This document shows positions 1,012 to 63,200 of a DNA stretch of 64,000 bases, in pieces. Every line of letters begins with the position of its first letter. The first letter of the stretch is position 1. Both the position numbers and the translations under genes were made by a program. The notes beneath the pieces were generated by a model. The model did no database searches and had not been told where the DNA came from. It saw only the letters and a list, made by a program, of their open reading frames with translations. The DNA comes from Lethocerus indicus. Its lineage: Eukaryota > Arthropoda > Insecta > Hemiptera > Belostomatidae. The DNA is taken from assembly GCA_019843655.1 (NCBI GenBank), contig JACDQD010000003.1, forward strand, positions 32,352,224 through 32,416,223. Direction: 5' to 3'.

Positions 1012-2066
1012 ACAAGGAAGAATTGTTTGAGGGAACTAGAATTTCAGTAAAATATTCCAATTATCTATTCGGTTGTAGGCTAGGTAGATTCCCACTTCGG
1101 TACATTTTGTGTTACTTAATTTCGGTACACAGCAATACATGAAAAACAAAAAATATAATCATTTCTTATAACTAACGAACTCGACATGGTATGATCGCAG
1201 TCCGCTATTTCCTGCATATACATAGTTATAATTGAGGAAAAATTCCGCATGTCTGGAATTAGAAACTGGGTTTATACGAATTGAAAATTTTAACCGACCT
1301 CGCGAGAGAGCAAATATTTAACCTATTTAACAATATTTGAACGCGTCCGCGAAATTCGGCTCGGATTCCTGGAGCTGAAATTAAATCTGAGTTTCGAACA
1401 ACGTAACAATATTAATTAAATAACGAAACAAAAGGGTTCAAAATAACTATGCATATTTGATTATTTCTTTTACGCAATAATTAATTACCTTCGTGATATA
1501 AGGATATTGGTATTTAAAAAAGAATTACATTTATACACAACGAGCCTCGGCTAAATGAAGACCTAACGATACCTGATGAAAAAGGTAGCTGTACTCGGCT
1601 GTGAATGACAGGTCATTGATCCGTTCAATCATATGACCGGAAGAGGTAGATATGAACTCCACTGCTCGTTCGGCCTTCCGACCGCATTCGAACACTGTTT
1701 TTTTTTTTCTGTTTTTAACGCTTCAATTATACGAGTTATCACTGCGGTTTAATAAACTGCCGACTGTAGACCGGTGCGACACTAATGTTTTCTAGTCTAA
1801 TCACTCGAAAAGTGGCCGACCGCATATTCAATTACACTGTTGACCACTTAATGAAATATCGATTTAGCACCTACAGCTTATTTCAATACCGCCGGCTTAT
1901 TGCCGGACCTACTGCATAATGGAATGTAACACGTGACCTGTGATGTTTTTAAAAATATGCGCGTACAGGTTGTTTTTTATAAACTTCATTTTTACAGCCC
2001 CCGATATGCCCTTGTATAGATTGTAATCTATGCTCCATACGTACCTTCCGACTTTATTGGCTTATT
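386..2066. other. intergenic, no gene seen
   Basis: AT-rich sequence without a credible reading frame. It contains a pure (AT)n tract at 975-1008 and an 11-base T run near 1698-1708. I see nothing else. Confidence 0.6.
975..1008. repeat. (AT)17 microsatellite
   Basis: Uninterrupted AT dinucleotide tract of 34 bases. Confidence 0.95.
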
Positions 2067-2100
2067 TTGTCTTAAGCTAGACCGGTTTTGAATTTTCGCC
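2067..2100 (+). repeat. fragment of the hairpin SINE-like family (core only)
   Basis: Contains TGTCTTAAGCTAGACCGGTT, close to the core of the copies at 29 and 32.7 kb (GTCTTTTGCTAGACCGGTTTCGG), followed by a TTCGCC box as in those copies. The flanks do not align, so this is an old fragment or a related family. Confidence 0.4.
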
Positions 2101-2352
2101 ATAGGCAGCAACAGTACTTCAGTGATACAGTGAGGTCTGTTGTTTACTAGAATTCTAGTTCTAGTTCATCACTCACAGCGTTGTATAAGATAGATAAACT
2201 CTTCCAATTTCTTCCAGTGGCAACTAACTACATTCGCCCACATTTTGTACCATCTGTGCTTACTTGGGACTACGTAACGGATTAATCTTTGTAATTGTCT
2301 TTTTGTAATTATCATTCCCAAAGAAATTTTAATGGGAACGGACCTTCCCATA

Positions 2353-5221: not shown

Positions 5222-5412
5222 AGTTATTTTTATTTTTATTTCTAGCGCATCTTGTACCATTCACATGTGACAGTGGAAACAGGAAGCCACACAAGCGTCC
5301 AACCTGCCAAAGGAGGCGACACTGGTATAGTAAAAGACGAAATCGGTGAGACAGAAGAACACGAAATCTACGGTATTCTGACCCCTCGCAGACCACAAAA
5401 TAGGAATTAGTT
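5222..5412 (-). repeat. SINE-like element with an A-rich simple tail (family of the 29 kb hairpin copies)
   Basis: Read on -, it starts with TTTTGTGGTCTGCGAGGGGT and ATACCGTAGATTT, as in the copies at 29.02 and 31.67 kb, then TTCTGTCTC and a diverged middle (CTATACCAGTGTCGCC for the usual CTAGACCGGTTTCGG). Unlike those copies it has no inverted 3' arm and ends in a GAAATAAAAATAAAAAT tail, as SINEs do. Flanks on - (TAACTTCTGAACTAATT before, AACTTCGAATAATTTG after) look like a decayed target-site duplication. Short frames here that begin MVCEG are translations of the repeat, not genes. Confidence 0.7.
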
Positions 5413-23713: not shown

Positions 23714-24489
23714 AATGAAACGAGTGGGCGCCCGCATGATTACTGGGGGCTGGATCCGATCAGGTGTGGTGATCATGTAAGGTGAGGCAGCGTCGTGTCC
23801 CCATTAGGGTTGGACTTTCGGCCCTTTGAAATCGAAAAGCCCGCATGACGCGCCCAGTCGCTGCCACTTTCATAAGTAGTATGGTAGGCATTCTGCAAAT
23901 CATGATATTCCAAAACTTCCCGCACCCCCTCAACGGACACCTTACAGAATTTCTTTTTTTATTTATTTATTAGAATCGTAATTAAGACTGTATCTGTACC
24001 AGAATGCAGAGTCATTCTAATCAAAATCCAACCGGTACAGAATATTTGTACCTAATACTAGCTGGAACACAATTATTGTTGTCCAAAAATTGCGTGATTT
24101 TTATTTTTCAGACCCCTTTCCGTTTCTGGTCACGCGAATGTCCCCCCCCCTTCCCCACGTTATGCCTGTAAAGGGAACGGACAGAATAAAAGTATAAATT
24201 TTTAACATCGTAATTTATTACTGTAATTTTCAGTTTGTTTAGTAACTTTCGGATCGCGTTAAAATCTTCCGCACGGCCGATTGACACGTACGATTATAGG
24301 GGAAGTTACACAACTTCACACTCAGGCCAATTGCACAACAATAGTACGGTTGGACATATTTCATATTAACAGGAAGCTGTAATATTTTTACACCTGCTAG
24401 AATTCACTGCAGGTTCGGTTTGCCTTAATTATATAATCAGTTTTCCGCAAGAAACAATTCTTCAATTTCGTCTTCCTGCCACAGTCGTC

Positions 24490-24490
<1 letters not shown>

Positions 24491-24539
<49 letters not shown>
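24491..24539. repeat. (TA)n microsatellite, about 49 bp
   Basis: Pure TA dinucleotide tract ending in TATGTATG. Confidence 0.95.
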
Positions 24540-24547
<8 letters not shown>

Positions 24548-29007: not shown

Positions 29008-29335
29008 TTAACAGTATCTAGTTTAACCTACCTGTTTTGTGGTCTGCGAGGGTTGGAATACCGTAGATTTGTGTTTCTGTCTCCTCTCTGCTAGACCGGT
29101 TTCGGCTGTTCGCCACTATTAGCACTGGATGTTTTTCGGCCATCCTCACTTGTACTGTACAAGTAACAGTAAGACAGTACAAGTGACAGTGCATTGAGCA
29201 TGCCCGAAAAACATCCAATGTGCCAATAGTGACTAACACCGCTACTGAAGATGGCGAGCGACCGAAACCGGTCTAGCAAAAGACTAAACCAGCGAGAGGA
29301 GACAGAAACACAAATCTACGGTATTAACAGTATCT
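29008..29335. repeat. target-site duplication flanking the SINE-like copy at 29020-29323
   Basis: TTAACAGTATCT at 29008-29019 is repeated exactly at 29324-29335, directly abutting both element ends. Confidence 0.8.
29020..29323 (+). mobile_element. hairpin SINE-like element, full copy A
   Basis: The element is 304 bp. It begins AGTTTAACCTACCTG, then TTTTGTGGTCTGCGAGGGTT (A-box-like; compare tRNA-Glu TGGTCTAGTGGCTAGGAT), ATACCGTAGATTTGTGTTTC, TGTCTCCTCTC, GCTAGACCGGTTTCGGCTG and a GGATGTTTTTCGG block. A short loop follows, and then the reverse complement of those blocks in reverse order, ending CAAATCTACGGTA. It would fold into a long hairpin. The 3' end is the complement of an internal 5' site, not of the 5' terminus. 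It carries no open frame, so it is non-autonomous. Exact 12-bp duplications flank it. Variable-length duplications in this family (12 and 15 bp) fit LINE-mediated insertion better than a cut-and-paste transposon. Confidence 0.8.
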
Positions 29336-31657
29336 TGTCAAACTAAAACGCTCGATCGAAATTCAGACGCGACAATGTTTTTTGCCAATCGAAGAAATCG
29401 TTAATATTTCTAAAACCATATGTTAGCGTTTTATTGTATTATTTTTCGTGTATTGTCACGATCCAAAATAGCCAAGAATGCAGTTCTAGTTTTAGTTGAG
29501 TAATTTTTTTCAGACCGCCGGCGTCCGACATCCGAGCGCTTTTACGAGCCGTCCCTATTAAACGTCCGGCCGACGTTTATAAGCTTTTTCTATAATATCT
29601 CCAAATCGTAAAATCTCTAGGCTATTCCGCTCGGCGAACGGCCCTCGCGATAAAATTTCCTCTTCGCTTGCGATAATAAAAATTGTCGTAAAGATACCGC
29701 AATTTATGTGCGACGTTGGTGGGGGATTGATTCGGTATGATCAGTATACTGTTCCCGATCTGGGAATCGGAACAAATCCAACCGCCGGGCGCATATCGAA
29801 CACTCATATGGGTCGTTTCTTCACACCTACTGCAATTGCGGAGAATATTTACTTGTTTAATGGTCGGGACACTAACTTATTCGAAATAAAAGTACGTACA
29901 TTTCTTTAAAAAAATATTGATAAATCATAAACCATTTATGTAAATGGTAAACCGCAATGTATCATTGCAGACGCCAAATGGTAATTTCAAGGTTATTAAC
30001 ACTGTGAAAACTTTGTACTGCATCCACTTGAGGTTTCTCTAGTTTAATCTCCCAAATAAGGCATCCGCGAATGTGTTTTATTTACCGCGTACGAAATATT
30101 AGCGGCGAACAAAAGCAACAGGATGAAAATTAATATTTAAAGGGGGCGTCGGGGCAAGATATATCTCCTCCGCCTGTCGCCAACACGCTGAATAAATACG
30201 ATTATGGCACCCGCGAGGACTAATTTCATTCCGGGGCCGAGATTTTAATTTAAGTCTTTGCTTTTGAAGTGTCGCGTTCATTTACAATTTCTCCAAGACG
30301 CGTCCCTCGAAGACATTCCCTCGGGAATTAGGTTCGGTGCCGGTTAACGCAGTGGGGTGACCGCCTTCGACCTTACGTATACTATATAAACATATACAAT
30401 AAATTGGCCGACGGTGCCATCAATATGCAGATCGGGCGTGTCCAATAACGACGGATTTTACCGGAGCCGAGTTTAAACCGGAACTTTACCGCACGAAAAT
30501 TGCAGTAACGCGGTCCGATGGAAGGGAAAATTACTTTTTCTTTCCGAGAAAGAGTATATTCTAATTTATCGTGTTTCCTCCTTGAGGCGGCGAAGGCCGA
30601 TCCGGCCGACAAGCGACGATGGGATCGCCTTAATTTTTGGACGGCATATTTATATTCTGTCGCGACGAACCGGGAACACTGACGTCCTCAAATTCCGTTT
30701 CCAGCGAATACTCATTGGCCTTCATTAGTCGGGAAAATACGTTTCGACTTAAAAGAATAACTTCAGTTATTCTGAAAAAATATCTTTGAATCATGAATTG
30801 AACAATGATTACGCGGTTATTCGTTTAATGTTTTAAATGTTATATCATTATAGTGTAAATAGAGAATTAAATCGTCTACGCGTTGTGTGCCCTCCGAAGG
30901 AATAGCCTTAAACAGAAATAGAGACTACAATTATCAGCGCGTGATACGATCCGACTCGGGCAATAAATCAACGGTATGCAAAATGTATCTTTTGCATAAC
31001 AATCGGAGTGAAAAACCACCGGGACCGCTCTCATATCCCGAATGGATTTTGCCCTTAACGATTGAGATAGGTCGGCTGAAAGTGAAATACAACGAACATC
31101 GGTTACTTTCACCCCGCGGAAGAATAAAAAAAAAGGTTACTTAAGTTTATAGAGGCGTTTATTATAATAGTAACAACGAAAGCGGTTTGTCGGAGTCCTT
31201 AACGAATTTAGACTCGGCTTTTTAATCGGAGCCGAGGAAGGAGGAGCGGCGGCGTATTGAAACTTTCACCTCGAGTTGTGCCTTTTGTGGCGGGACCAAA
31301 GAACGGGGGTCGGCCGCCCGTCGAAAAACGGACAAAGGGTTTTGTGGGCGAAAAAAAAGCGGGGTAGAAAAAAAAGAATAAGACCCGGAGAACTGCGGCC
31401 GGCCCGCCATAATTTCTTCCCCTTTTGCCTTTGCTCCCCATCCCGTCCGCTTCTTATCCCTCATCGCGGATCTGTGTTGGTCCAAATAGAAAGTTTCCAA
31501 AAGCTTCGATTCGATTGTTCGAGTTTCTTGAATCCGCGCCAGGCTCGAACGTTGGGCGCACCGTCGTCTAATAGTTTTTGTTTTTGTCGTTTCAACCCCG
31601 CCAGTTGTGGAATAGAGTCGATAGGACCACTTTTTTAAAATGTAACACTTTGAAAAA
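29336..31657. other. intergenic, no gene seen
   Basis: GC/CpG-richer patches at 29500-29800, 30060-30310 and 31200-31620 leave frames of up to 120 codons open on one or both strands. The peptides are Arg/Pro/Phe-rich with no domain. The 30060-30310 patch has homeodomain-like ATTA sites in CpG-rich context and could be regulatory. Confidence 0.45.
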
Positions 31658-31833
31658 ACAAAATTAAATACTAGTTTAACATACCTGTTTTTGTGGTCTG
31701 CGAGGGGTTGCGATTCCGTAGATTTTTTGTATTTCTGTCTCTGTTTGGTCTTTTGCTAGCCGAAACTAGTCTAGCAAAAGACCAAGCCAGCGAGAAGAGA
31801 CAGAAATGCAAAACATCTACAAAATTAAATACT
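31658..31833. repeat. target-site duplication flanking the SINE-like copy at 31673-31818
   Basis: ACAAAATTAAATACT at 31658-31672 is repeated exactly at 31819-31833, a perfect 15-bp duplication. Confidence 0.9.
31673..31818 (+). mobile_element. hairpin SINE-like element, internally deleted copy B
   Basis: The element is 146 bp. It shares the start AGTTTAACATACCTG, TTTTTGTGGTCTGCGAGGGG and the CCGTAGATTT and TTTCTGTCTCTG blocks. It reaches GGTCTTTTGCTAG, then a five-base centre, then CTAGCAAAAGACCAAGCC, AGCGAGAAGAGACAGAAA and an end near ACATCT, so only the outer stem is left. The arms are still well paired. The perfect 15-bp duplication shows it inserted as this short form, or was shortened without losing its ends. 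A 63-codon frame over it is not a gene. Confidence 0.85.
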
Positions 31834-32692: not shown

Positions 32693-32844
32693 GATACCGT
32701 AGATTTGTTGTATTTCTGTCTCCTCTCGCTGGTTTGGTCTTTTGCTAGACCGGTTTCGGCTGCTCGCCATCTTCAGTAGCGGTGTTAGTCACTATTGGCA
32801 CTTTGGATGTTTTTCGGACATCCTCACTACAGTGACAGTGCACT
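32693..32844 (-). mobile_element. hairpin SINE-like element, 5'-truncated copy C
   Basis: On + it begins GATACCGTAGATTTGTTGTA and continues through TTTCTGTCTCCTCTCGCTGG, GCTAGACCGGTTTCGGCTGC, CATCTTCAGTAGCGGTGTTA and GGATGTTTTTCGG, then stops matching. This is the complement of the 3' arm of copy A, so read on - the copy ends at the family's 3' end CTACGGTA(TC) and lacks the 5' half. A 5' truncation with a kept 3' end is typical of LINE-driven insertions. I could not find its target duplication. Confidence 0.75.
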
Positions 32845-37439: not shown

Positions 37440-37507
<68 letters not shown>

Positions 37508-43018: not shown

Positions 43019-46470
<3,452 letters not shown>

Positions 46471-63127: not shown

Positions 63128-63200
63128 GAACGGCATTGATGTTGGCGAGAAGCTGAAACCGGTCTGACCGAGGACATAGAGGCCAGAAACAGAGAGTATT
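63128..63200 (+). repeat. diverged 3' arm of the hairpin SINE-like family
   Basis: GTTGGCGAGAAGCTGAAACC, GGTCTGACCGAGGACATAGA, GGCCAGAAACAGAGAGTATT follows the order of copy A's 3' arm (GATGGCGAGCGACCGAAACC, GGTCTAGC, GAGGAGACAGAAACAC). Confidence 0.5.

Follow-up and report, generated by a model that had tools for sequence, protein, structure and literature searches.

Hairpin inserts in the genome of Lethocerus indicus are inverted pseudo-LTR pairs of a Penelope-like element, probably primed from both strands of the target

Introduction

Pseudo-long terminal repeats (pLTRs), inverted pLTRs, an optional tail, hammerheads and target duplications have all been described already for Penelope-like elements (PLEs). 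Here we compare with these elements two hairpin inserts, copies A and B, found in a 64-kb stretch of Lethocerus indicus DNA (contig C3, 32352224-32416223; hereafter the window) that belongs to a genome of 427 Mb in 209 contigs. An earlier note on this DNA had read them as a retroposed, hairpin-forming short interspersed nuclear element (SINE), with a foldback DNA element as the alternative. Inverted inserts are also known from LINE-1 twin priming, where both nicked strands prime on the RNA and an inverted joint results inside one pair of duplications.

The closest described systems are the Penelope elements of Adineta vaga and Poseidon of Anolis carolinensis (PAc). The Adineta elements, for example Pen2a_Av, carry pLTRs and an inverted pLTR, as do the copies studied here; further likenesses are an optional 31-bp tail on one inverted pLTR, an inverted pLTR that is 37 bp shorter, an open reading frame (ORF) starting inside the pLTR, TATATATA with an initiator (Inr)-like motif, target duplications (8-10 bp where stated) and palindromes at the joints (PMC3846280). 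Given these palindromic joints, self-priming was proposed and favoured for them (PMC3846280). PAc resembles our copies in its hammerhead motif with an ATG at stem II, in a tail that lies between two internal start sites of the reverse transcriptase (RT), in the cleavage and extension of both strands and in its AT-rich targets; the purified Anolis PLE initiates at two neighbouring positions within its RNA, which mark the limits of the tail (PMC11167929). According to a review, the PLE sequences then available all carry hammerhead motifs, usually minimal and without helix III (PMC6155905), and a guide cites Craig et al. 2021 for inverted pLTRs with short extensions (PMC8969392). The route of PLE insertion and the reason for single-tailed inverted pLTRs were left open in the two papers on the mechanism, PMC3846280 and PMC11167929, and the counts given below bear on how inverted pLTRs arise.

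Results

Copy A (29020-29323; positions count from the first letter of the window) is a hairpin insert within an exact 12-bp target duplication, ttaacagtatct, of which the left (TTAACAGTATCT, 29008-29019) and right (29324-29335) members were read from the sequence and with a duplication script. Copy B (31673-31818) is a second such insert, within an exact 15-bp duplication, acaaaattaaatact, whose left member (ACAAAATTAAATACT) lies at 31658-31672 and whose right member lies at 31819-31833. They share the 5' start AGTTTAAC[C/A]TACCTG, and in each the 3' end complements a site lying some 40 nt in from the 5' start. Direct reading thus agreed with the earlier note on the positions, the duplications, the common start and the derivation of the 3' end. 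Complementary stretches in the arms of A include 32 nt (100%), 27 nt (89%) and 26 nt (88%), and those in B 30 nt (87%) and 15 nt (100%).

We conclude that A and B are inverted pairs of the pLTR of a PLE, neither a SINE nor a foldback DNA element. A is a complete pLTR end, reversed, and joined to the same end minus its last ~41 nt. Its tail-bearing arm (29020-29158, minus strand) has internal gaps relative to the family and, by eye, about 39 nt of tail at 29020-29058; its tail-less arm (29174-29323, plus strand) begins at the predicted start site (acagtacaag) and goes as far as CTACGGTA, aligned from 29182 and read by eye for the remainder. In B, both arms are truncated inside: the tail-bearing arm, placed by alignment, covers 31673-31759 on the minus strand and the tail-less arm 31759-31818 on the plus strand, with one base common to both at the joint.

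Read on the other strand, the head AGTTTAAC..TACCTG is the PLE tail, a stretch of about 41 nt present on one arm and absent from the other. On the strand of the complete end, a frame read by eye from an ATG gives M-A-S-x-R-N-R-S-S-K-R-P-N-Q-R-E-E-T-E-T-..-I-P-T-P-R-R-P-Q-N-R-Y-V-K-L and continues through the tail, so that the A-box-like head of the earlier note is the complement of a tail that continues an ORF. In A this frame starts with the ATG at stem II of the motif described below (MASDRNRSSKRLNQREETETQIYG..; 29251-29323, plus strand) and is taken to hold the initial codons of the PLE ORF. The insertions at L035, L036, L039, L044 and L046 terminate in ..CTACGGTATTCCAACCCCTCGCAGACCACAAAACAGGTATGTTAAACTA or nearly so.

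A genome search with a PLE RT motif query returned 33 matches among 34 candidates; compared with PDB and Pfam, the query itself gave no match. The RT loci fetched were L110 and seven with downstream sequence, L111-L117, of which six carry the same RT, and L116 looks like a different PLE. A long decayed element at C8:19189300-19193900, read in the overlapping stretches L118, L113 and L119, has a pLTR on either side, a tail-bearing one at 5' (90%) and one at 3' (88.8%) that finishes at the tail-less end; between them lie decayed ORF pieces, including the RT (YVDDT), and an endonuclease region. The RT of L118 matched RVT_1 with E 9.5e-05 and 22.6 bits, below the Pfam cut-off of 29.6, and the endonuclease region alone (L113:510-800) matched PF01541 (GIY-YIG) with 24.6 bits against a cut-off of 22.6; the longer L113 and L117 proteins gave no match to PF01541, and a genome-wide scan with this model gave none at E <= 0.001. 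The closest of 19 homologs to the endonuclease region, P0001 of Rhynocoris fuscipes, is 49% identical over 100% of the query; PF26215 was present in 11 of the 19, and the best homolog is named GIY-YIG domain-containing by one source.

In L110 a single open frame runs from the RT into the same pLTR tail; the locus is a joint between the two. The idea, also from L110, that the tail is part of the RT thumb was rejected, the six RT copies L111-L115 and L117 being without the tail there. Since the C8 element has the same pLTR around RT and GIY-YIG, and L110 joins the RT to the tail, the repeat belongs to a PLE. As judged from sequence, it appears to be of the endonuclease-bearing (EN+) kind, being linked to an RT with GIY-YIG C-terminal to it and having an optional tail and pLTRs both in direct orientation (L118/L119) and in inverted pairs, usually with one ~41-nt tail. 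The earlier note had named, among the things that would speak against a SINE, an autonomous relative with the same ends and a transposase; a long, decayed counterpart with these ends does exist, and it codes for RT and GIY-YIG endonuclease instead.

The pLTR also holds a hammerhead-like core motif, a PLE hallmark and putative ribozyme, which consists of GCTA, CTGAAGA, a 3-bp stem II, GAAA, CCGG, TC, the cut and TAGC, and overlaps the ATG of the ORF. A strict motif search found it in 33 of 66 set-1 arms (>=120 nt) and nowhere among 60,000 dinucleotide-shuffled versions of the reference (set and reference are defined below). In A it lies at 29241-29277 on the plus strand (GCTA-CTGAAGA-..-GAAA-CCGGTC/TAGC), with a predicted cut after 29273; its stem II is weakened by one change, hence the strict search did not report it.

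The family is abundant: the exact 24-nt tail occurs 671 times in the genome and the reversed pattern 0 times, and a search with copy A gave 107 matches in the 40 candidates scored out of 4948. Three samples were drawn from it. Set 1 comprises copies chosen by similarity to A (39 heads, 30 two-armed), leaving out L014 and L019, the same in sequence as L013 and L018. Set T, sampled by the tail, is made of the first 50 listed places with an exact tail, all on contig C1 (37 two-armed). The incidental set holds the 61 clusters, 5 of them at edges, within 292,857 bases of fetched loci and the window; L007 and L106 were left out of its count. Arms were placed on a 231-nt reference with the TATA at 1, the predicted start at 34, the tail-less end at about 190 and the tail end at 231. 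L106, a local duplicate of L105, was kept in the tail-state count and left out of the tests of inner ends, arm length, arm likeness and independent choice.

As a rule, one arm of a two-armed copy has the tail and the other lacks it. The second arm was tail-less in 29 of 30 two-armed copies of set 1 (other in 1) and in 32 of 37 of set T, where it was tail-bearing in 2 (L089, L103) and other in 3; two-armed copies with other ends (L037, L100, L104, L108) stay in these denominators. Incidental clusters with both orientations numbered 27: one-tail 14, two-tail 3, zero-tail 2 and unclassifiable 8, this set being the sole source of zero-tail pairs. The 14 one-tail pairs among the 19 classed compare with 9.5 expected under independent site choice (P 0.03). 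For set T, with the expectation taken from incidental-pair frequencies and with two-tail copies discoverable through either tail, 2 of 34 copies were two-tailed against about 18 expected if the sites were independent (P 7e-9); adding the complex clusters L076 and L077, whose further tails were seen by eye and are uncounted by the tail-state rule, gives 4 of 36 (P 2e-7). The one-tail rule is therefore strong but not absolute.

The outer ends of the arms are nearly fixed, those of second arms in set T clustering at 185-196, and truncation is mainly at the inner ends; this corrects the earlier note, which spoke of 5' truncation. Among the inner ends, 21 of 85 fall at reference 30-34, where 1.6 would be expected from the rest. 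In longer copies TATATATA (TATATAAA in L119) was counted by eye to lie 33 nt upstream of ACAGT. Reading these as TATA (31-33 nt upstream of the inner point) and initiator promoter motifs, which we take them to be, the inner point is most likely the predicted 5' end of a PLE mRNA made by RNA polymerase II, with CAGT as the initiator.

In 17 of the 31 one-tail copies of set T, the inner end of the tail-less arm lies more than 10 nt beyond that of its partner; in 11 the tail-bearing arm is the one that goes further, and 3 are within 10 nt. With the 14 incidental one-tail copies added, whose inner ends were transferred by hand, the tail-less arm leads in 25 of 45 and the tail-bearing arm in 16. 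A general rule that the tail-less arm is longer was dropped, the excess of set 1 (25 versus 2) shrinking to 17 versus 11 in set T (binomial p 0.34) and probably reflecting sampling bias. Arms within a copy are closer than arms of different copies (6.9 versus 8.8 edits; 0 of 20,000 permutations for all 41 pairs, and 22 of 20,000 for the 15 pairs from set T alone), which fits one RNA or one source. That a single RNA molecule served both arms is not supported by the arm lengths, whose predicted opposition was not found (Fisher p 0.20-1.0). The 31 joints of set T comprise 8 overlaps of 1-6 nt, 2 flush joints, 7 fillers of up to 15 nt and 14 longer fillers. No shared ORF sequence was seen beyond the tail in the 50 set-T loci, where matches run ~20-30 nt past it; the sole long post-tail match is the local duplication L105/L106.

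Exact duplications of 9-15 bp were found in 13 of 27 tested copies of set 1 and the window, a range given in this form as matches of 7-8 bp are common among controls. In set T, duplications of >=10 bp were found at 12 of 50 loci against 1 of 294 mixed controls, where a match can include as many as 4 letters belonging to the start of the element, in controls likewise, and sometimes lies away from the arm end (30 nt off in L099). When left and right sides were swapped between set-T copies, the longest exact match was <=10 bp (294 trials). The 15 nt preceding the insert are 76.6% AT, compared with 59.6% at a distance of 100-400 nt (p 1.2e-7, n=49). The target duplications are thus variable, lie in AT-rich DNA as those of PLEs do, and have no constant length. 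Of the retroposed SINE of the earlier note, the retroposition stands with these variable duplications; the SINE falls with a head that is a PLE tail and with the absence of tRNAs in the window and of Rfam matches at the gathering threshold.

Discussion

The hairpins are, we think, probably by-products of PLE retrotransposition, both nicked strands priming at a pair of neighbouring sites inside the mRNA leader and the cDNAs being joined. The PLE enzyme, perhaps as a dimer, would cut both strands of the target, and each target 3' end would prime reverse transcription at one of two adjacent 5'-leader sites of the PLE mRNA. One arm begins at the end of the ~41-nt tail and the opposite arm just before the tail; either may reach the fixed inner point, which would be the 5' end of the PLE mRNA. 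The two cDNAs would then meet and be joined through short overlaps or filler, so that the whole would amount to a site-specific twin priming. The insert would be without an ORF because initiation takes place at the first (5') pLTR of the mRNA and not at the downstream one.

The copies look like what the Anolis PLE would make if both strands were extended, with one arm per site. As a broader and more tentative proposal, a serious possibility to which we do not commit ourselves, inverted PLE pLTRs would arise by such twin priming, with two RT subunits, one leader site per nicked strand and usually exactly one tail; the cDNAs would be joined without a separate second-strand synthesis, and the abundant SINE-like hairpins would come from this reaction at the 5' pLTR of the PLE's mRNA and not from a separate non-autonomous family.

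Several observations weigh against this explanation. The start site is a prediction, and the long relative that was read is decayed. By the tail-state rule 13 of 50 set-T loci, a sample of exact tails from one contig, have no second arm, and the pairing has its exceptions (two tails in L089, L103 and 3 incidental pairs, further tails in L076 and L077, zero tails in 2 incidental pairs). The full-length state of one arm is unassociated with that of the other, by the Fisher tests given above. The Rfam hammerhead models did not report the hammerhead-like motif, whose stem III has no loop, and minimum-energy folding did not yield the hammerhead form. With PAc in vitro, moreover, the start site did not differ between the strands (PMC11167929), which leaves a strict pairing of sites unexplained.

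The alternative that survives best is self-priming, in which antisense RNA or the first cDNA of the same PLE folds back at a palindromic 3' end and copies itself. A near-palindromic CTTGTACTGTACAAG does stand at the tip of several copies, A included, and the likeness of arms within one copy suits this route too. A self-copied arm, however, is limited to the reach of its template, which in a one-tail copy has to be the arm that bears the tail. Yet the tail-less arm is longer inside by more than 10 nt in 17 of 31 such copies of set T (and in 25 of 45 with the incidental ones); therefore arm-from-arm copying is not the general route. Many joints also lie off the palindrome and show filler or an overlap of 1-6 nt. 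Self-priming is still compatible with the copies whose tail-bearing arm is longer; as a general route we regard it as unlikely. The earlier note's self-templated or inverted dimer holds accordingly in its second part, the second half being the reverse complement of the first, and a self-templated origin fails for many copies on account of their arm lengths.

Long palindromes lose their centres, and a complete hairpin might have been inserted and its centre later deleted unevenly during replication of the palindrome. The internal gaps in one arm of some copies are of the kind that this would leave, but it would not give the arms a common end, and the clustering of inner ends at the predicted start site makes this course of events improbable.

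More doubtful still is an independent, SINE-like, non-autonomous hairpin family that is transcribed as a unit and mobilised by the PLE in trans. The high copy number without an ORF (the 671 exact tails) and the lack of common ORF sequence beyond the tail in the 50 loci of set T would be expected of it. In the loci read, however, the tip varies from copy to copy, and therefore copying does not proceed by whole hairpins; some single-arm copies, moreover, have target duplications (L092, and L041 by eye).

A foldback or miniature inverted-repeat (MITE)-type DNA transposon, or a classical SINE transcribed by RNA polymerase III, can practically be dismissed: inverted arms and target duplications are what either might show, but the ends are asymmetric, with ~41 nt on one end only, the duplications measure 9-15 bp, and these same ends bound a relative that codes for RT and GIY-YIG. 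ARAGORN found 0 tRNA genes in the window, and 0 Rfam families reached the gathering threshold there; A and B boxes were unscored as such, and longer copies show TATA and Inr-like signals upstream. Matches to Rfam miRNA precursors, far below gathering scores and typical of hairpins of any kind, were set aside.

Priming from both strands of the target, at two sites of the leader, also has to be placed among the described systems. Unlike in Adineta, most of the sampled copies here are ORF-less inverted pairs or single pLTRs, at least hundreds in number, and the arm lengths argue against the self-priming that the Adineta paper prefers (PMC3846280). The evidence for PAc is biochemical and inverted pLTR pairs are unmentioned in the sections of that paper covered here (PMC11167929), whereas the evidence here is genomic and the pairing of two sites nearly strict. 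Metazoan retrozymes are likewise short non-coding repeats (~150-450 bp) with a type I hammerhead, but they are tandem with canonical hammerheads (PMC7229834); our copies, mostly single arms or inverted pairs and not head-to-tail tandems, with a minimal motif and a direct link to a PLE, were rejected as members of that group.

Compared with the LINE-1 reaction, the copies here are set apart by a second priming site that is fixed and by arms that overlap over much of their length. In the literature covered, with subscription papers outside that coverage and sources present in part, we found neither a count of the one-tail rule over many copies nor its use against self-priming, nor hairpin pLTR pairs as a common product; this absence is a weak sign that the count is new. 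The genome offers at least hundreds of short products that show both start sites, the presumed 5' end of the RNA, the joint and often the duplication, and self-priming and two-ended priming thereby become separable through counting. Hairpin "SINEs" or "foldback elements" of other animal genomes may be PLE by-products too.

Other Copies and Side Features

The window holds further copies of the same pLTR. Copy C (32694-32841, minus strand) is mainly one tail-less arm, without a clear target duplication by eye; it has an intact hammerhead-like motif, with the CTGA starting at 32776 on the minus strand, which is the sole match of the strict search in the window. Copy D (5266-5404, plus strand) is an old single arm that extends into the tail. 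Two old fragments lie at 2060-2115 (minus strand, E 3e-05) and 63131-63177 (plus strand, E 1.1e-05). No closed ORF of >=150 aa was found in the 64-kb window, which has simple repeats, long (TC)n and (TA)n, at 45651-45850, 24488-24540 and 37450-37500.

Elsewhere in the genome, sequence on contig C99 looks identical to places on C8 and C10, flanks included (L013/L014, L018/L019), and C99 is perhaps an alternative haplotype or a mis-joined contig. The copies L105 (C1:7773412-7775435) and L106 (C1:7776844-7778867) lie 3.4 kb apart with more than 500 bp of common flank (96%); they are a local duplication that carried the insert along. Just upstream of the broken RT of L110 there is a GC-rich repeat array (L110:30-1430; CGACAACTCACATCCTCCCTCCGGCC..), partly with a spacing of 76-77 bp, and another GC-rich repeat, read by eye (CCAGCGCGCGGCCCAATGTGTTCGG..), stands at the 5' end of the long element (L118:1-830). 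Some copies (L036:260-460, L040 and L043-L045) begin further upstream than the predicted start (GACTTAAGCCGATTAACAAAATCCCACCCC..TATATATA), a pattern that read-through or tandem transcripts would produce, and in L036 the upstream stretch is likewise present as an inverted pair.

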